Assembly: GCA_025602905.1 (NCBI GenBank)
Contig: JAHLKI010000017.1
Span: forward strand, 186,001-250,000
Source: Phlyctochytrium arcticum
Lineage: Eukaryota > Chytridiomycota > Chytridiomycetes > Chytridiales > Chytridiaceae
Length of the DNA stretch: 64,000 nucleotides
Reading direction: 5' to 3'
In this document: piece after piece, positions 3,997 to 29,600 of the stretch
Layout: each line of letters opens with the position of its first letter
Position numbering within the stretch: the first letter of the stretch is position 1
Position numbers and translations under genes: made by a program
The notes under the pieces: generated by a model
What the model was told of the DNA's origin: nothing
The model's input: only the letters and a program-made list of their open reading frames with translations
Databases searched by the model: none

Positions 3997-5062
3997 CTAG
4001 TCCTCGCGGCGACGGTCGCCGCCACGGTCCTCACGTTCGTAACGAGATCCAGAGCGGCCTCCTTCACGGTCGTCACGACGTTCACGGCGGTCACCTCCGC
4101 GGTCATCGCGGCGGTCTCCACTGCGCTCGTAGCGGCCACCTCGGTCGCCTCCACGTTCACCACCTCGTTCTCCACCCCGGTAACTGTCACGGTCACCACC
4201 ACGGTCACCTCCGTAACCACGGTCTCCACCAAAGCCACGGCTTCCACCGCGACCTCCTCCACCGAATCCACCACGACCACCACCGCCACCACGGTCCTCA
4301 CGAGGGGGACGATCGTTGGCAATGTCTACGCGGATAGGGCTAATTTACAACAAAAAAAGGGTTAGATCTCAAAGGTCACGCATAAAAAGTCTTGCATCAG
4401 CTCCTTACCGGCCATCGAGTTCCTGGTCCTTCATGCCATCACAGGCATCCTCGGCGTTCTTGCTGTCGGCAAAGGTAACGAATCCAAATCCTCGGGATCG
4501 ACCTGATCGTGTTCGAAGTGACGTGATTCGTGATTTGCGATAGGCAAAGGTTGATCGTACATAAGAGGAACAAGGAAAGGTATGCGAAGCGACGTGTCAG
4601 GAAAATCAATCAGGTCAGGAAAGGAGAATCTTTTTGGGGCTCGAGACATGAAACGGGAGGAAGGAAGAATACGGAGATACCCGGAATATGCACTTGCAGA
4701 GCCATCGTCATAAACGATCATGTAGGATTCACGGAGGATCAATCCTTGCAACGAAACAAATAGGCACGCGCGGGTCAAGGCAAGCGGCTTTCTCTTTGGA
4801 TACAGAGCGTCAAGACAATCCATTTTCCCATCTCTCTAACAACCTCCCCTTCACGGCGAACGGGGGCATATAATCACGAGCAAAGACGAAGCAAACAAAG
4901 AACAAACGGAGTGCGGAATCATCAAAATCGATCTGAACCTGTGTCGCGATCCGAGATAATGTAGGCGTCGGTAACTTCTCCGTACTTTTCGAAAGCAGCG
5001 CGGAGGGAGTCGTTGGTGGTTTCCCAGGCGAGGCCGCCGACGAAAACTTTGCTGCTGGCCAT
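3997..5062 (-). CDS. Glycine-rich RRM/RGG RNA-binding protein
   Basis: Small RNA-binding protein of the CIRBP/GRP type, probably acting in mRNA processing or stability. Exons 4939-5062, 4409-4502 and 3997-4339 give 186 residues. One RRM (about 5-80) carries RNP2 (KVFVGGLAW) and RNP1 (RSRGFGFVTF); RNP1 is rebuilt exactly across the first intron, which confirms that splice. From about residue 90 to the end the protein is RGG, GGDR and RYER repeats. The first intron (4503-4938, 436 nt) is six to eight times longer than most introns here and holds no obvious repeat. Members of this family often control their own splicing through such an intron, but nothing here proves it. Confidence 0.92.
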
Positions 5063-5306
5063 GGTGATTGTGGGGATTGGTAGGAAAGTGTGACGGGGAA
5101 AGGGAAGCTGAGGATTGCGGAGAAAGGTCGCGGCAGTTTTCTTTGTTTTGCGGGCTCCCCCCCTGGCAGACGCTGCGCCATGCCCATCAGATGGCACAGC
5201 CATACTACTGCAGATCCCTTGCTGCGCACTTCGCATTTGAATAAGGATGGGATATATAGGATATACAAGGTCCGGCATAAAATAAAACAAAAATGACATA
5301 GAGAAT

Positions 5307-16081: not shown

Positions 16082-19000
16082 TTAACTATCTGCACTATAT
16101 AACAAATTCTCAATTTCCGTTCGTCGACGATGAAGCAAAATCTTTTCATCCACTTCATCAAATGCGGGTCCACAGTGTTCCGCACTCAGTAAATCGCTCA
16201 AGGACGTACACGAGTCGATCGAGTCGTGCCGTGAAGAAGAGAGCGGGGTGAGGAGATCATCTGAGAGGCGACGACGATGGGTGGTGGTTGAAATGCGGGG
16301 AGATTTAAGGTCGTCGTCTGAATCGGGGGAGGGTTCACGGACATAGGCGTGGTTGACTAAATCGTCGGGACGACCATCGTCTCTGAATCGAACGACATTG
16401 GTCAAAGGATGATGTTGACGATTCGTACCGCCCTCAAAAGGATTGTCGTCCACCAGGATATGCGGGGACGGAGCTTGTAGGGGTACACCCCTCGACGGAT
16501 AATAAGGTCCAACCTGCGGCCCACACTCTCGTTCGCCCTCATGGGCATGCAAATCCCGCATCATATATTCCGTCAAATCGTCGCCGTGGTCATCCACTAA
16601 AGGATCCCGAAGGAGTTCTTTGAACCAGTCGGCCGTCATGCGGGTGGCTTGTTTGGCTTCGGGGAGGATGGAGAGCATCTGGAAGAGGCCGTGGGAGACG
16701 CCTTCGAGGATTTTGACGCGGACCATGCTGTCGGGGTCGCGAGAGAAAATGTGGGTTTTGACGTTTTCTGTTGTAGTAGACCCATTGGGCATCGAGTTGG
16801 ATTTATCCTTTTCCAGACGGGCCATCATCCGTTGCCACTCTTTATGTGCCTTTTGTTTATTCTCACGGAGCCGGCCGGCAAACACGACGGTATCATCCAC
16901 CAACGGATCTTTTTCACCACACAACAAATACGTTTTCGGGAACCGGGCCAACAGATCGTCGGGGGCAATCACGGGGCTCAAGTAATAGTCCATGGCCAGG
17001 TCGATCGGTAACGGGGACGTTCCCAGGTACAAGAGTGCCATTGCCCGCATCACTAGGGAAAACTTTTAGTAGAGACCAAACGGTCAATGACCAATCCCAA
17101 AGAAACATACTCTCAGGCGTAATAATCCGATCCGTAAAGTACGACATGCGCGACGTCATCGACAACGCAGACGGAATGCTCGGACCCACGGCCGTAGCCG
17201 GTTTTCGGAAATTATAGTACCAAGATTTAGACCGGTCGACTTCATCTTTGGCAATATTGATTTTGCGGGGTGCTTCTTGCGGGGTTAAAGGGGACTGGGC
17301 CTGGAAACTGTGTTTGGATTCCGAGAGGGGTTTGAGGGAGAGGTTGATGGTTGATTCTGCGCGCATCAGTTTGAGTTGTTCGGATGGCATCCTTTCAGAA
17401 TTATAAGGTGAATCTTTTTTGAAGGGGAACAAGAGAAAAAAAGGGTGACTTACCAGCAAGACATGTCAAAGGATAAGCAGGGGTAGATGAGGACGACGCC
17501 GTTGGGTGGAGGAATATGTTTTTCGTACGTTTCCAAGCATCGCATCACAACGCCCACCACCAGATTTCCGCCCGCAGAATCTCCGACCATGACAATCTTG
17601 AGTGGATCCCTCTTTTTCCGTTCACCAGCCGTCTCAAATCCACCATTGATTCCCAAGACACTGCCACAGGATTCCACAATACTGCGGTAAGCGTCAAAGC
17701 ATTCTTCTAAAGCAAAAGGGTACGGGAATTCAGGCGCCTTGCCGTAATCCAGCGAGACGATGGGGATACGCGTAATATTGGCCCAGTGGGTCACATAGTC
17801 TTCATGGCATTTAGGACCCATGGCGACAAACCCTCCCCCTGGTAAAATCAAGACCATTTCCTTGGCCTTTCTTAATTCGGCTTCACTGCCCTTGAAATAG
17901 AGACGGGCTGGGATGGGGCCCAGCGTCAAGTGCGGGAACGAGGTGATGGAGGGCGGGGTGGGTCGTGGGATCAGTATGTCGCGCTGGATACTCAACCGCG
18001 GTCGATCCATGGCACCCAATAGGCGAATGTAGGGATTGAGCGGCTTGTTCCATGACACTCTCATCATCTCGATCGTCGGGTGTGCTCTGAATCTTCTGAC
18101 CTATATTCGTTTCACTCTATTTAGTCTTTCTGCAGTTTTTCTCATACTCTCTCACTCCCTCTCACTCCCATCCATCACCCTCTCATTCATCCATCCACTC
18201 ACGAAACCAATCGAGTCAACCAAGTAAACGCATGCTCCTCCCCCGAGCGTAGTGTTGCACCATGTGTGAACCCCGCATTTGATTTTGCTGCGCAAAATCC
18301 TGTTCCTCGCTCCTTGCGGAGCTTCGTCAGTCTCTTTTTGAGCTCGCTCCGCTCGCATTCAATTTTGCTCCGCAAAATTGGTCTCCCTCGCTTCGCTCGC
18401 ATTTAATTTTGCTTTGCAAAATCGTTAGCGCCCATCCATTTTTCCTTCAGAAAAATGTCTGGGCCCGACCGCGCTCCCGCTCGCCAATTTCCTTTCAGGA
18501 AATTGTCTCTCTCGCGCGGGCCCTCCTCCCCCTCCCCTTCGCTCGGGGTCGTCATAGTCTCCACTTCACTCGGGGTCGTCATAGTCTCCACTTCACTCGG
18601 GGTCGTCATAGTCATTCCACCCACCTTCTCATCAGCACTCTCAGGAAACGCGAGATAACAAACAGAAAACAAAAAACTCAAGAAATCCCTCAACCAAATA
18701 GGTTTAATCCACATGGCCGAAAAGAACCCGGCATCCAGACTCGTCAAGATGTAGGAAGCGCGGTAAAAGTTTCGGGTATACTAGAAAGTCACATTTTCAG
18801 CTCCGGTGTCCATCCATCAAGAGAATCGGTGGATGAAACAGCAACATACCATGCGAGCCAGCGGTTCGGGGGCTATAAATATATCAAAAGGATGTGGTTA
18901 GAAATCTCTCTCTCTCTCTCTCTGGGGATGACTCTATCCCTCACATCCCTCTGACCCTATCCCTCATCCATCCATCAAAGCTTTTGAGTTTGTTATTTAA

Positions 19001-19643
19001 ACGCATGCTCCACCCTTCGCTTGCGCTCGGGGTCGTCGTATTGTTGCACGAACGTGTGAACCTGTATTGATTTTGCTCCGCAAAATCCTGTTTCCTCGCA
19101 CCTTGCGGAGCTTCGTCAGTCTCTTTTGGAGCTCGCTCCGCTCGCATTCAATTTTGCTCCGCAAAATGGGTCTCCCTCGCTTCGCTCGCACTTGATTTTG
19201 CTCCGCAAAATCGTTGGCGCCCATCTGTTTTTCCTCCGGAAAATTGTCTGGGCCACCCTCGGCCTCGGGACGTACCATTCATGCCGAGAGCCAAGAGGAC
19301 ATTGTTCAAGAACCAAGAGATGGAGAGAGTCCCAAAGATGATTTTCCATGGTGGTAATGTACCTTTACCAAAAAAAATTCAGCCTAACGCGTCGTCGTCG
19401 TCAAAACAAAAGAAACACGGATGGGTTAACGAACCAAATTGACGATCCATCCACTGAAACACGCGTAGATTGGAGCGTTGCGAGGGCGATCGTTGCAAGA
19501 CTCCTAGTCTAAGTTGATGTTACTCGAACTGTATATGCTGAGACGAGAGAGAGAGAGAGAGAGACTCACGCCAGCAGCCCAAAAAGGAGGACTTGGATCC
19601 GTTTGAGGCCGGCCGAGGGACGGCCCAATGCATGGTCCAGCAT
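16082..19643 (-). CDS. Hormone-sensitive-lipase-like alpha/beta hydrolase, membrane-anchored
   Basis: Esterase/lipase of the HSL family, likely acting on neutral lipids or steryl esters at a membrane. Eight exons (19570-19643, 19435-19508, 19276-19362, 18850-18872, 18625-18780, 17454-18100, 17111-17391, 16082-17052) join in phase to 770 residues; exon 4 is only 23 nt. The N-terminus (MLDHALGRPSAGLKR then IQVLLFGLLALGVL) is a signal anchor. More hydrophobic stretches (ISWFLNNVLLAL, LSFLFSVCYLAF) follow. Catalytic features are the oxyanion PGGG (225-228), GDSAGG with nucleophile S313, acid in EKDP (about D496) and GVSHG (about H568). The C-terminal 150 residues are polar. Introns 3 (403 nt) and 5 (524 nt) are swollen by the multi-hairpin repeat described separately; the other five are 58-72 nt. 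Confidence 0.92.
18145..18500 (-). repeat. Multi-hairpin intronic repeat, copy A (lipase intron 5)
   Basis: Fills most of the 524-nt intron 5 of the lipase. Contains stacked short inverted repeats such as GATTTTGCTTTGCAAAATC-type and CTCGCTTCGCTCG-type stems, and a TTTTTC/GAAAAA stem. By eye it is about 95% identical to copy C in the core (18232-18478) and about 85% to copy B. Copies A and C also share a GGATGGATGAATGAGAGGG tail on the transcript-downstream side. It lies in the sense direction of the host gene. Confidence 0.9.
18542..18615. repeat. 27-bp tandem repeat next to copy A
   Basis: About 2.7 copies of a 27-bp unit beginning CTCGGGGTCGTCATAG, between the intron-5 donor and repeat copy A. 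The CTCGGGGTCGTC word also occurs inside copies B and C, so this looks like local expansion of a piece of the element. Confidence 0.85.
18980..19262 (-). repeat. Multi-hairpin intronic repeat, copy B (lipase intron 3)
   Basis: Same family as copies A and C, more diverged. It fills most of the 403-nt intron 3 of the lipase, starting within about 8 nt of the 5' splice site. The ATTTTGC-nnn-GCAAAAT stems, the GAAGCTCCGCAAGG-like arm and the AAACGCATGC boundary word are shared. Sense orientation in the host gene. A pure CT/AG tract (about 18908-18923) lies just outside. Confidence 0.9.
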
Positions 19644-20126
19644 GTTGTTTTATGAACTGTTGGGTGGTGCCGAGACGACGAGCTTGAGGCGAGCCTTTGG
19701 GTAGTTGCCGCGGGCGGGGCAAAGAACTATCACATGCCAGAGCGCGGATTGCTTACGCGAGAATGTCCATGTACTTTACTCTTTTGGGACTGGTCGTGCG
19801 CAGCCATGCCTGTCTGCCCCAGTGTTAGGTAAGCCCTAATGTATGCCCGATATAGCCAAATGAAAGCAAAACGTCACTTCTGCAGAACAAGTTGCGTCAT
19901 GAGGCATCGATCTGGATTCTTTTGTTGCCCTCCCTTTCCTCACACCAACACTGTCACGAATCACACTGCCCTCCCTTTCCTCACACTAGCACTGTCACGA
20001 ATCACACTGCCCCTAAGGTATGGGCTTCAACTCACTCACTCCCTAACTCACTCACTCATTCACACTCATCCAACTAGACACTCACACTCACTCATCCAAC
20101 TAGACACTCACACTCACTCAAACCAA
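19644..20126. other. Divergent promoter region with direct repeats
   Basis: Between the lipase and TreY start codons. Two tandem near-identical 40-bp copies of a CCCTCCCTTTCCTCACAC unit lie at about 19928-20007. A 26-bp unit (CTCATCCAACTAGACACTCA...) is repeated twice at about 20066-20117, next to the TreY start and probably in its 5' leader. An ATG-initiated frame at about 19817 (minus) does not connect in phase to the lipase and was not used. Confidence 0.6.
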
Positions 20127-23125
20127 ATGCCCCCCCGAACCGAAAGCAATCACCGCCCATCCGAAGGCCGCCCCTACCCCGTCTCGCTCTACCGTTTCCA
20201 GCTGCGCCACGACTTTGCTTTCGCAGACGCAGAGGCCCAGATCGACTATCTCAGAGCGTTGGGCAGCACCCACGTCTACCTCTCGCCTTACTTGCAAGCA
20301 TCGCCTGGCTCCGCCCATGGCTACGACGTCGTCAATCATTCTTTGCTTAATCCGGAGCTGGGTGGGACTCAGGTAGGTGTTTGTGTCTTTCTTACATTTG
20401 GATTAGAGGTTGACGGTATTCTCATTAGGGATTCGACGCCCTCATCAAACGCGTTAAAGACAATGGCCTAGCCGCCATTGCTGACATTGTCCCCAATCAC
20501 GTCTCGGTCGCTGATCCTGAGAATCTTAATCCTTACTGGTGGGATACTCTTCGCAGTGGTCGCCAGTCAAAGTTTGCTCATTGGTTCGATATCGATTGGA
20601 ACCACCCGGAACTCAGTGGTGAGTGGGAGTGAAGTGGCGTAGCTCGAGGCCGAGTATCGCGGAGGGGCCCAGACATTTTTCCGGAGGAAAAATGGATGGG
20701 CGCTGACGATTTTGCAAAGCAAAATCAAATGCGAGCGAAGCGAGGGAGACCAATTTTGCGGAGCAAAATTGAATGCGAGCGGAGCGAGCTCAAAAAGAGA
20801 CTGACGAAGCTCCGCAAGGAGCGAGGAACAGGATTTTGCGCAGCAAAATCAAACGCGGGGTTCACACATGGTGCAGCAGTACGACGACCCCGAGCGTAGC
20901 GAGGGGGAGGAGCATGCGTTTACTTAGATGACTCGATTGGTTTCGTGAGTGGATGGATGAATGAGAGGGTGATGGATGGATGGATGGATGGAGTGAGTGA
21001 GAGGGAGTGAGAGGGAGAGGGAGTGAAAAGGAAGGAGGAAGTAAAGAGAAATGAAAAGTGACTAACTATAGAGGTGATGATAGGCAAGGTACTGCTACCG
21101 GTTCTGGGGGATGAACTAGAGAATATCGTAAAGAAAGGAGAACTTCAAGTAGAAGAGCTGAACGGAGAACCTATTTTACGCTACTGGTCCCACGTCTTTC
21201 CTTTAAAGCCGGGCACAGAAGGATTGAAGGATAACATGAAAGAGTTACTCGAAGCGCAAAACTACAAGTTGGCGTTTTGGCGGGTGACACTGGAAGGACT
21301 GTTGAATTACCGTCGGTTCTTTGATGTCACGACACTAGCCGGAATCCGTGTGGAGGATAAGGAAGTGTTTAACGAATCCCACAAGATATTCATTGAGCAA
21401 CTCAAGAGTGGTGCACTGGATGGATTGAGAGTAGATCACCCCGACGGACTAGCTGATCCTCAGCAGTACGTCGAGAATTTAGCACAAGCTACGAATGGAT
21501 CATGGGTCGTGATTGAAAAGATCCTGGAGGAGGGCGAAGAATTGCCTTCGGAGTGGCCGTGTGCGGGAACCAGCGGTTACGATTCCTTGATTCGTTTGAC
21601 TGGACTTTTAATTGACAAAAGTGGTGAAACTCCTCTGACTGAGGCATACCAGTCCTTCACCGGCCTCACCAAAGATTTCCACCAAGTAGTAGACGAATCC
21701 AAACACTTTATTCTCCAAAAATCACTCATTGCCGAAGTCGAGCGTTTAGTTTCGTTGTTATTAGTTATTCAAAAAGAGGACCCCTCAGCCCAGGGACTCT
21801 CACACGACGCCCTCCGTGACTCTCTCATTGAATTCCTGGTCGGATTCAAAGTCTACCGGGCCTACATCCAACCCGGCCAACCCATCCCCAAACAATCTCT
21901 TGTGCATTTATCCGAAGCCACCGAATACGCTAAACGCGCTTTATCTACCAAGCGAGACCACGAAATCGAGTTTATTGCTCGGGCGGCCGCATACAAGTCG
22001 GGAACGTCGGATGCCGCCAAAGAGTTTGTGAGCAGGTTACAACAGACGTGTGGACCGGTTATGGCCAAAGGCATTGAAGATACCGCCTTCTACCGGTATT
22101 TCCGTCTAACAGCTCTCAATGAAGTCGGTGGTGACCCGGCCGAATTTGGCAAAACGATCCAAGAATTCCATGAAGCCTGTCAAGTCATGCAAAAGGATTG
22201 GCCATTGACTATGACGACATTATCCACCCACGACACCAAACGCGCCGAAGACGTTCGGGCTCGCCTTGCCGTCCTCTCTGAATTCCCGCAAGAGTGGTCT
22301 GAGGCCGTCGCTCAATGGTCTTCCCATGTAGACTCTCTGGGACTCCAGAACCGACCCGACAAAAACACGGAATACCTGTTTTGGCAAACGCTAGTAGGAG
22401 CCTACCCCATCTCCACCGACCGGCTCGCGGCATACATGGACAAAGCCATCCACGAATCCAAAGTCTCGACATCCCACACCGACCCCAATCCAGCCTTTGA
22501 CGCCTCTGTCAAACTCCTAGTCGAAACCGTCCTCTCCACTCCCTCCCTGTTATCCCAAATCGAATCCTTTGTAGAGAAAATCAAACTTTACGGCCGTCTC
22601 AACGCCCTGACGCAAAAGGCCATTCAATTGACCATGCCGGGGATCCCTGACGTCTACCAAGGCTGCGAATTGGAAGATTATTCATTGGTTGATCCGGATA
22701 ATCGTCGACCGGTAGATTATACTCTGCGAAGAACGCTCCTGGCGAAATTAGATGGCAAAAATGGGGGGCCTCCTGACATTGATGATCTTGGCACGGCGAA
22801 ATTGTATGTGACTTCACGGCTACTTCGGCTTCGTCGTGACCATGCGGATGTGTTTGTGGGTCCGGATGCGACGTATACACCTATCCATGCAACAGGTCCT
22901 CGCTCGGATAACTTGATCGCCTTTCTCCGCTCCAACAAAATCCTGACCATTGCCCCACGTCTCCACGTCTCCATTCGCGAACGGGGCGGGTGGCAAGGGA
23001 CAACGATTACGGTTCCGGAGGGTCGTTGGAGGGATGTACTGAGTGGGAAGATGGTTGAGGGTGGGCAAGTACCGGTGGAGGAGGTTGTGAGTGGGTTCCC
23101 GGTTGCTGTATTGGTTAAGGAGTAG
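20127..23125 (+). CDS. treY: Maltooligosyl-trehalose synthase (TreY-type)
   Basis: Glycoside hydrolase family 13 enzyme that turns the reducing end of maltooligosaccharides into a trehalosyl unit (EC 5.4.99.15). Exons 20127-20372, 20429-20618 and 21072-23125 give 829 residues, normal for TreY. Visible motifs are SLYRFQLRHDF and YLSPYLQASPGSAHGYDVV at the N-terminus, IVPNHVSV, RVDHPDGL (nucleophile D267), VVIEKIL (acid/base E294), THDTKRAED (D533), and MPGIPDVYQGCE with LVDPDNRRPVDY. The family is known mainly from bacteria and archaea, so presence here suggests transfer. Yet the gene has two spliceosomal introns, the second (453 nt) holding repeat copy C. No TreZ partner is in the window. The enzyme call is firm; the transfer is inferred. 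Confidence 0.95.
20640..21040 (+). repeat. Multi-hairpin intronic repeat, copy C (TreY intron 2)
   Basis: Occupies almost all of the 453-nt intron 2 of TreY, from about 20 nt after the donor to about 30 nt before the acceptor. Core stems are TTTTTCCGGAGGAAAAA, GATTTTGCAAAGCAAAATC, AATTTTGCGGAGCAAAATT and GATTTTGCGCAGCAAAATC, separated by GCGAGCGAAGCGAGG-like arms. A GGATGGATGGA/GAGGGAGTGAGAG low-complexity tail follows. Read on the plus strand it has the same sense, relative to transcription, as copies A and B in the minus-strand lipase. Confidence 0.92.
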
Positions 23126-26674: not shown

Positions 26675-29600
26675 GGTTGGAAAAAAAAAATGTTGCTGGG
26701 GTTTGGACTGAAATGCGAACAAAACGTTTTTATTGGGGCCTTTTTACAATAATTATGATCTCGGAGCCGGAGCCTCAGATCAGAAAAAGGGGTTTATCCC
26801 TGATTTTTTTTGTGGTGGGGGGAGGGATCCTGAGACGAAGAAGAAGGTTGATTTGCTCTAGATCCATTCTACTTCCATTGATGCATTGTCGTATTTTTTC
26901 TGGTCGCTATTCATGCGATCTTATGTAACCCCCAAGCTCGGAAAAACAACTTTTGCTGAGCCTTTTATCGTACTGGTAAAAGAAGGATAAAAGACCCCTG
27001 CAAAATCGTTTTAGGATATACCCAAACGGTCCAAACTTGCATTTTTTACTCTCGAATATGTTTTTTGTATGCAAACGATTCCCAAGTCTTCCGCAAAAAT
27101 ACAGGGAAGAACTGTCAGGTTAGGAAGGAGGGAGCTTTATCTACGAAATCTTGAGAATCGGAATGAACACCACATCTAGAAAGGATAGCTCCTCAAAACA
27201 CCTTGAAAGTTTTTGGTTTCGCTCCTTCCCCTCTCTATGACTTGGCCAAAACGCTACATTTTTTTTCTCCAAACGACCTTTCTTTTAGAAGAGAGAGAAA
27301 ACTCTTACAGGAAAGTACAGTAGTTACTAGTTATGAGAGCCATTTTGTACATCCACTTCCATATGATAAAATTCATAGCTGCGCACGAGTATAAGCAAAT
27401 GCATAGAGAGAGTATACTTGAAAGACCGAAACACGCTCTGTCGGTCCACGTGACCTGTCGTTTTTTATAATTGTTTCCGTCCTGTCCTTCCTTTCAACCT
27501 CTCTCTGTTCTTTCCCTGCTTTCCAACTTTTTTGCTGAATTTCTTACCAGTAACGCCTGCTTCCTGTCTTTCCACCGAGTCCCTTCCCATATTTTTCCTG
27601 TCCTTCTGTCCCAATCTGTGTACAAATTAGTACGCCCTGTTGGTTCAGTTTCAAAATGTAAGACGTACATTTCTTCGTATTTTCATTCTTTCGGCCTTTC
27701 GTTTGGCCAAATCTTCTCATGACTGTAGCTTTATTTTTTCCAGTACGTTCATCTACTTACTCCCCTATATTTCCATTTTCTTTGCCTAGCTCCTGTCTAC
27801 GATCTATTTGGTCCTATAATCCTTTCTTAAAGCCTACCACAATGTCCCAAGACCTTGAACCTGTTTCTGTTCTGGGCTCTCCTGCCTTTCTGCATGATCT
27901 GTCCGTACAACGTAGCTACAGCTTCTTTTTGTCTCGAGATCTGACTTTCTGCAGCCAACCTTTCTTTCTAATCTTCGTCCTATTTACATGCTCCATCTGT
28001 TTTCCGGACGTTGACTTTTTAGGGCTGTTACTCATCTTCAGTTCTCACGCTTCCCTTCCTGTTTTTTGTGCTTATCCGTACTCGGGATGAGGGTGTACGA
28101 TGTATCTGTCTATTGTCTTGCTTCCTACTGCTCCTTTCTTACACATTTGGGTTCTCCTGCCTGGCAGTCCAGCAGTCCTGTATACATTTGATGATCCAAT
28201 ACGAGAGGGTAAACCCTCGCTTCGCTCGGGTACAATGTAGGGAAGAATTTTAATTTTGATCTCCACCAAATGAGGTGAAGCAGGAGGTGAAGAGACAAAA
28301 ATAACAAAATGGAAATGTATCGGAGAAGAAGTGTCCGCTCAGTGAATGACATTCAAGAGATCTGGCAAAAATGTAGGTATGATATACACCGATCCCTTCC
28401 TTGCTTGCCCATACAACTTGTGAATAGTAATTGCATAGGTAATGGATGTGCATGTTGAATATCTTGACCCTGAATACTGCTCATCTTCACAGAGACCGGT
28501 GACAATATCTAAAAGTTGAGTATGGTTCTGAGAATTGTCCTAATTTGCCAATTTGTCCTTGCTGAAGACATGGTAGAATGTAACTGCTAAAATCATTTCA
28601 CTGACAATAATCCCATTGTCTTCTTCGAGGTAAGTATGTCGAGATTTGAATGGAATTCTTTCAAAATTGGCGGTTCATACAAAAGTTTGATTATCTCCCA
28701 GACCATTGAAGGACCCTCAACCTGAACCAACAGTTTAGAACCGATGGTAGTCCAGTCACTTTCAAAAACATTATGATTGTATTCATTATTGGGCGTGGGT
28801 AGATATCCAATGCTCAGCTGAATTAGGCACTTGTGAAATTCCCTCACAAAAACTACATGAGCATTTGCAAATTTGAGCCTATAGTTGTGCGTACTACTCC
28901 GTCAAGTTAATAAGACTAGGGTTGTCTCGCCCAAGTGTGGAAGGCAGCATGTACCAAAAATCACCGCCCAAGATAGCAACAGTGCCACCAACAGGTTCGT
29001 ACATTTATATGCCGCATCATCTCCAATGGTAAAGCATTTCTATTGGAGCAACTCACCAAGCGCATCTCATGGGGTTTTATGGTGCAAATGGAGTTGGCCA
29101 ACATATTAGTTCGGACCTTTGTCTAACGTGTGCACCGGGGCATTGAATCCGCGAAGAAGCTGACTTCGGTAGTTCAAGAAATCTGCCAAGCCAAAATCGC
29201 GCCTTAGTAATTGGATCGTGGGAAATTTTATGTTAGTGACCCAATGCAAGCGTGCAAAGTTTTGTATATTTCTTAGTTTAGCCAGTGTCCCTATTGTGTG
29301 AAATCGTATAAAAAGGCAGTCTGGGTTTGTTTTGAAGAAGAGAATCCAGGAATTGTCACCTACAACATATTGTACGCTTTCAAAAGCATCTAGTCATCCT
29401 GTTGTAGGCCTGTCTGCTCCTGTTTTCCTTTCCTAAAGAGCCAGCACTGGCAAGAGCAAAAAATGTCTTATTTCTGCCACAACATTGTTCATATGAAATG
29501 ACACGGCATTTTGGTGCAATGACTACTGCAAAATTTACGGTATAATACATTTTGTACTGCCAACTTTAGCAGATTGATTGATCCTTCTCAATGATCAGCC

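Follow-up and report, generated by a model that had tools for sequence, protein, structure and literature searches.

Three long introns in two neighboring genes

The window, i.e., the whole 64,000-nt stretch of Phlyctochytrium arcticum DNA analyzed in this study, has an alpha/beta-hydrolase gene on the minus strand and a treY gene, encoding maltooligosyl trehalose synthase, on the plus strand. The hydrolase gene (16087..19643) was modeled with exons 19570-19643, 19276-19362, 18850-18872, 18625-18780, 17454-18100, 17111-17391, and 16087-17052; the region separating the first two exons was left unassigned in this model, and the 3′ end may extend beyond 16087. PF07859 is recorded for its homologs. 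The treY gene (20127..23125; exons 20127-20372, 20429-20618, and 21084-23125) was defined by the gene model and by homologs P0001-P0009. Its protein is a 100% match to P. arcticum DFS34DRAFT_624907, and the next matches are from other chytrids. The deposited treY protein (P0001) has an N-terminal extension of about 55 amino acids which apparently comes from a tandem-repeat region (19926-20120) and is absent in eight aligned homologs. Its start is probably mis-annotated.

Two long introns interrupt the hydrolase gene, namely intron A (18101..18624, minus strand, 524 nt) and intron B (18873..19275, minus strand, 403 nt). Homologous proteins of Spizellomyces, Powellomyces, Geranomyces, and Gaertneriomyces are contiguous over both junctions (five homologs at ...ADEK/VR.FRAH... 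for intron A and four at ...N/APEPLARM... for intron B). Intron C (20619..21083, plus strand, 465 nt) lies in treY. Eight homologous treY proteins are uninterrupted here, and removal of 20619-21083 gives exactly the protein deposited for P. arcticum. The protein evidence at all three junctions fits the excision of these introns by splicing. There is a second, in-frame AG at 21071, which was the choice of the gene finder (the last exon starts from 21072 in that model).

It was originally predicted that one repeat family occupies most of each of these introns and always reads in the direction of transcription. The sequences bear this out. Copy A (18121..18615, minus strand; core 18187-18473) has three 27-nt tandem units in its 5′ part (18532-18613). 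Copy B spans 18906..19272 on the minus strand (core 18998-19254). Copy C (20640..21019, plus strand) ends 3′ with a purine tail (GGATGG/GAGTGA). Copies A and C, which are reciprocal best hits, share 226 nt at 96% identity (20658-20883 in copy C) and another 77 nt at 97%; the match between B and C covers 163 nt (93%). All three are in the sense orientation of the host gene, in introns far longer than the ordinary ones (median 62-63 nt). A BLAST search of the window, with these copies and 35 element introns as queries, returned A, B, and C as the sole copies. As a side observation, ACTGAC and TTTACTnACAG words recur in the sense strand of the element (e.g., 20805-20930); they look like a branch point and a 3′ splice site within the element.

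Make-up and folding of the element

In the sense direction, the 5′ splice site is followed within a few nucleotides by a variable run of palindromic modules. Then comes a common core composed of TGGCCCAGACATTTTTCC..GGAAAAATGGATGGGC, GATTTTGCnnnGCAAAATC, GAGCGAAGCGAG, and CTCCGCAAGGAG. Most copies have a 3′ block (GGTGCAACAATACGACGACCCCGAGCGTAGCGAGGGGGAGGAGCATGCGTTTAC..ACAGACTCGATTGG) with a GGATGG-rich tail, and the intron ends with a mostly unshared stretch bearing the branch point and the 3′ splice site. Copies vary widely in module content and order; the identity to the best hit has a median of 85% (74-93% between the 5% and 95% points).

Folding was predicted for sequences trimmed at 720 nt, with 40 shuffles each. 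The fold z-score has a median of -4.5, and 35 of 53 introns score below -3. Triloops make up 216 of the 501 hairpin loops, and GNA accounts for 143 of them, as compared with 1802 triloops among 18494 loops, 248 of them GNA, in the shuffle control. An H1-like pattern was matched 57 times; 15 of these matches have a loop of more than 8 nt, and nearly all of these 15 loops enclose a second hairpin. The element probably grows in place by insertion of hairpins and tandem duplication of modules.

Covariation was assessed for four hairpins. Compensatory cells exceeded all 300 column shuffles for H1, H2, and H3, and those of H2 and H3 also exceeded the slid controls. Those of H1 were not above the slid control (12 versus 14), and those of H4 were not above the shuffles. 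The number of pairs having any compensatory change was ordinary for H2/H3 (reached by 129 of 300 shuffles; 16 of 300 for H1). No Rfam match at gathering scores was found within the window. The idea that folding aids splicing was rejected, as the folded path from the 5′ splice site to the branch point is no shorter than in dinucleotide shuffles (22 versus 22).

Distribution and orientation in the genome

Is this family confined to the two genes? I examined the genome (31.5 Mb in 91 contigs) and classified 64 copies, of which 54 are intronic, nine lie at gene 3′ ends, and one (L066) is unplaced. The copies lie on contigs of 0.03-3 Mb carrying genes with spliceosomal introns. All 63 placed copies are in the sense orientation. 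The sense-only reading predicted from the window extends to all placed copies, while the claim that no copy lies outside an intron holds in the window and fails for 9 of the 64 classified copies. The figure of 64 is a lower bound: the DNA and pattern searches took the best 40 of 90 and the best 40 of 80 candidates and 50 of 89 sites, the census leaves out 18 stretches with further pattern sites, and the duplicate loci L012, L022, and L033 were removed ahead of counting. Three pairs of contigs (L011/L012, L020/L022, and L025/L033) share the same gene and intron in identical or nearly identical form, and these are assembly duplicates or recent copies. The exact element patterns were absent from viral and bacterial/archaeal sequence collections.

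Placement was based on a custom gene finder, for which this DNA also served as the training set, on splice motifs and reading frames, and on homologs and paralogs. The 54 intronic placements rest on the gene finder in 32 cases, on homologs in two, on paralogs in two, and on splice motifs with a coding score in 18, some of which were also made by the gene finder. The first settings of the gene finder were far too permissive and were dropped. With a looser intron-length setting, L023, L026, and L028 appeared antisense-only, within merged gene models; a stricter run and the reading of junctions placed L023 and L028 in sense introns, and L026 lies downstream of a sense ORF. Weaker intron placements are L013 and L041, which come mainly from splice motifs, and L017b, whose 5′ splice site is weak.

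The nine copies at gene 3′ ends (L026, L030, L032, L036, L038, L049, L050, L080, and L081) are all in sense. In seven of them the element starts 0 to 220 nt past the stop codon; the reading frames of L036 and L049 terminate within the element. A convergent predicted gene or coding signal lies downstream of L030, L032, and L049. Some of these placements are weaker, namely L030 (a short ORF with a weak score), L080 and L081 (ORF ends truncated at the locus edge), and L032 (220 nt past the stop codon of its gene and next to a convergent gene). The copy of L026 (oriented 4790-5085) abuts a TAG stop codon, with an 11-nt direct repeat, GGTGGGTTTTA, on its two sides; the coding tail there consists of glycine repeats. 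The direct repeat may be a target duplication or a local repetition of this tail.

The hosts are mostly unrelated genes. In a Pfam scan of 40 flanking exons, 24 were matched at E 0.001 and 16 had no match. The families found include GH77, photolyase, VID27, a mechanosensitive channel, PLP decarboxylase, glycogen synthase, the diacylglycerol kinase accessory domain, P-type ATPases, a mitochondrial carrier, PP2C, SDR, and rhodanese. The element splits the profile match of glycogen synthase at 134/139 and that of PLP decarboxylase at 162/164; a reticulon profile is likewise split at 107/111, in a match under its curated cut-off. Similar introns in many unrelated genes, a hallmark of introners, are thus present here, with 54 intron copies and differing Pfam families.

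Probable enlargement rather than creation of introns

It was proposed that the element creates or enlarges introns. The borders of homology were measured in 41 introns. Shared sequence begins at a median of 8 nt past the 5′ splice site (range 0-29; a word-based measure gave a median of 13 nt, range 6-96) and stops at a median of 48 nt ahead of the 3′ splice site (range 0-154). The cores of copies A and C are 96-97% identical, while the final ~50 nt of their introns are divergent. Element introns are 167-1002 nt in length (median 450), and without the element a residual intron of 60 nt (median; 0-160) would remain, which is close to the ordinary length.

A gene family marked by YRxxDCAxVL, for which no convincing Pfam match was found, has the same intron with and without the element. 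In this one family, with L054 left out at the intron site, the intron is 515 nt in L021b and 451 nt in L052, both of which have the element, and 75, 61, 63, and 63 nt in L056, L057, L058, and L059, which do not. These paralogs have a common 5′ splice site and branch-point region; every intron begins with GTGA.T, and the intron end of L052, ACTAACTGAGAGCTTGATGATAG, is nearly letter-identical in L058/L059. Since the short introns share the 5′ splice site and the branch-point region, the element most likely enlarged a pre-existing intron in this family, as far as the paralog sequences indicate. Alternatively, the short introns may have lost the element precisely. The introns probably predated the element in other host genes too. 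A distant multi-copy branch, L060-L064, is intronless at this site. The open frames of its members reach ~400 aa, and the family looks mobile. The P-type ATPase genes L025 and L048 have element introns about two codons apart in an alignment made by eye, while their paralog L042 is intronless there; this pattern could reflect de novo insertion or an old intron.

The enlargement half of the proposal fits the residual length and the short paralog introns, while the creation half finds no support in the unmatched 48 nt at the 3′ end or in the same paralogs. The evidence does not bear out the label introner if this is taken strictly as an element which creates introns.

The YRxxDCAxVL family may also hold a trace of the origin of the element. 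At its start, the L058/L059 intron has 27 nt (GTGAGTCTCGTGGAGTGAGACTTTTTT) very similar to the 5′ module found in mobile copies at other loci, and the more distant L056/L057 have a part of this sequence. A subset of copies opens with a sequence like the 5′ part of this intron (GTGAGTATCGCGGAGTGAGACTTTTTT), 5′ splice site included. The YRxxDCAxVL-family intron may thus be a source locus; alternatively, hairpins were lost from L058/L059.

Element introns have stronger splice signals than ordinary ones. GTGAGT was found in 17 of 41 element introns versus 2 of 61 ordinary introns (8 of 125 in a looser ordinary set), and CTAAC in 30 of 41 versus 9 of 61 (20 of 125 in the looser set). Either growth is tolerated only by introns with such signals, or the element brought some of the signal along. 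The former is favored, since the element-free YRxxDCAxVL introns already have the GTGAGT and CTAAC signals.

A hairpin shared with Helitrons

The 17-mer CCCGAGCGAAGCGAGGG has 38 exact sites in the genome, one of which was left unread. Twenty-two lie in element loci (duplicates included) and 15 are 3′ ends of a Helitron family, where CCCGAGCGAAGCGAGGG forms the terminal hairpin; 13 of these ends have ...CCCGAGCGAAGCGAGGGTTTACCCTCTCG^T, and two are variants. PF14214 Rep domains gave 101 matches in the genome, and in the three pairs compared by coordinates the Rep domain lies ~3.3 kb upstream on the same strand. One such end was found in the window (28202-28230, minus strand; hairpin 28214-28230). 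The solitary hairpin at 28214 had been a candidate for an element outside genes, and it is this Helitron end. The Helitron terminus TTTACCCTCTCG^T was absent at the ends of the intron copies read, though the hairpin is present. The hairpin may have been transferred from a Helitron to the intron element or in reverse.

Route of spread

Local spread had been suggested from the two neighboring host genes. On the genome scale, eight neighboring pairs lie within 3 kb, whereas random placement would give 0.37 (all positions but that of L090 were used, 63 in total), and five of the eight are on divergent strands. A search for target-site duplications at intron ends, raised in the original prediction, was negative; in 53 introns neither target-site duplications nor terminal inverted repeats were found, the observed numbers being about those of permuted sequences. 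No reverse transcriptase or other enzyme linked to the family was identified.

Could selection have purged antisense copies via cryptic acceptors? The antisense strand has 18 cryptic acceptors at a score of at least 4, versus 56 in the sense strand, and 7 branch-point words versus 50. It is slightly richer in donor-like words (10 versus 7) and poly(A)-like words (6 versus 2). Because the antisense strand is poorer in acceptors and branch-point words, simple selection of this kind is unsupported and appears less likely. Sense-only placement itself suggests RNA- or transcription-coupled spread. Since all nine 3′-end copies are also in sense and the antisense strand is the poorer one in acceptors and branch points, spread by sense RNA/cDNA or other transcription-coupled copying is favored, with moderate confidence.

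What is the element?

I consider it probable that this is a nuclear, non-coding, mobile family of hairpin mosaics which occurs only in sense in transcribed non-coding DNA, enlarges introns, and spreads in a transcription-coupled manner. The element would mostly settle just 3′ of the 5′ splice site of an intron and sometimes at gene 3′ ends, usually with its GGATGG-rich purine tail, and after its entry the recipient would keep using its own branch point and 3′ splice site. Transfer from intron to intron would proceed as sense RNA or cDNA, or by other transcription-coupled copying. Excised element introns would be structured and hence perhaps long-lived. Local gene-conversion-like exchange among element-bearing introns would also take place, as would growth in place by the gain of hairpins and modules. 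A related and more tentative idea is an intron parasite with no need to make introns: the arrays would have been born in an intron of one family and copied together with its 5′ splice site, and sense RNA/cDNA copies would enter the 5′ end of foreign introns and mRNA tails, enlarging the introns. The birthplace intron would then still be visible in the short, element-free paralogs.

A true introner would enter exons with its own splice sites and thereby generate new introns. Alike long introns in mostly unrelated genes, every one in sense, would fit, as would homology reaching to a median of 8 nt from the 5′ splice site. The enrichment of GTGAGT and CTAAC would be explained by an element with its own signals, the sense strand has branch-point-like words (50 versus 7 in antisense) and acceptor-like words, and L026 has GTGAGG at its 5′ end despite following a stop codon. 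However, copies do not share the final stretch (median ~48 nt) leading up to the 3′ splice site, the residual length is that of an ordinary intron, the paralogs L056-L059 carry this intron in element-free form, and there is no target-site duplication; this reading is unlikely. A miniature DNA transposon, inserted at random and purged by selection of antisense and exonic copies, would account for a dispersed family with internal inverted repeats and with copies in introns and gene 3′ ends, and the small antisense excess of donor-like and poly(A)-like words points the same way. It is nonetheless improbable: terminal inverted repeats and target-site duplications are not beyond chance, cryptic acceptors and branch points are scarcer in the antisense strand, and none of the 63 placed copies is antisense or clearly intergenic, though 3′ UTRs should tolerate both.

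It is similarly doubtful that the hairpins are derived from or moved by Helitrons, with CCCGAGCGAAGCGAGGG as a 3′ terminator that was captured and multiplied. The exact identity of this module to the terminal hairpin of the 15 Helitron ends and the Rep domains upstream of the three matched ends argue for it. On the other side, the comparison covers the CCCGAGCGAAGCGAGGG module alone, the intron copies read have no TTTACCCTCTCG^T terminus, and sense-only insertion is unexpected for Helitrons. The least credible reading is a functional structured RNA of introns, snoRNA-like or regulatory, which would be copied under selection on its fold. The sense-only placement, the strong folds (median z of -4.5), and the compensatory cells of H2 and H3 beyond 300 shuffles and slid controls are consistent with it; the lack of Rfam hits within the window (gathering scores), the large differences between copies in which modules they hold and in what order, and the ordinary number of compensatory pairs speak against it. 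Moreover, template switching is reported to keep hairpins paired as well (PMC8794818).

Comparison with known elements

The family is related in behavior to introners, yet departs from them in one defining property. The features in common with introners (PMC9860276, PMC4457414) are similar sequences which fill introns of mostly unrelated genes in sense. Ascomycete introner families are reported to lack target-site duplications and terminal inverted repeats (PMC9860276), and the chytrid element likewise has neither. In contrast to introners, its homology ends at a median of 48 nt short of the 3′ splice site, the paralogs reveal an older short intron at the tested site, copies occur at gene 3′ ends too, and the copies are mosaics with a median best-hit identity of 85%. 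No chytrid introners were recognized among the matches listed from the open-access literature searched.

The DHEs of Allomyces are mitochondrial double-hairpin elements. Double-hairpin and repetitive hairpin-forming elements reported from mitochondrial DNA (PMC7813641, PMC2800124) share with the chytrid element the nature of mobile palindromic hairpins. Unlike them, the chytrid element is nuclear, is found only in sense, and resides in introns and gene 3′ ends. Its mosaics fill introns of 167-1002 nt, bear a purine tail, and have hairpins nested in hairpin loops. The Helitrons of the same genome have the identical 17-nt hairpin CCCGAGCGAAGCGAGGG, whereas the element copies read have no Helitron 3′ terminus, are bound to introns, and are in sense only. 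The stwintrons and sister stwintrons of Hypoxylaceae (PMC12403724, PMC9024468) are likewise reported as spreading fungal intron families, with sequence at a 5′ donor, but the chytrid element has no demonstrated nested-intron structure, i.e., its own complete set of splice sites.

The lengthening of introns and the spread of intron-borne sequences are open questions. Work on introners seeks new introns, and this chytrid family suggests another route, with sense-only hairpin arrays colonizing short introns just past the 5′ splice site. With an orientation bias of 63 to 0, gene 3′ ends included, RNA- or transcription-coupled copying becomes directly testable in a fungus, and the paralog series provides a before/after pair for one intron.
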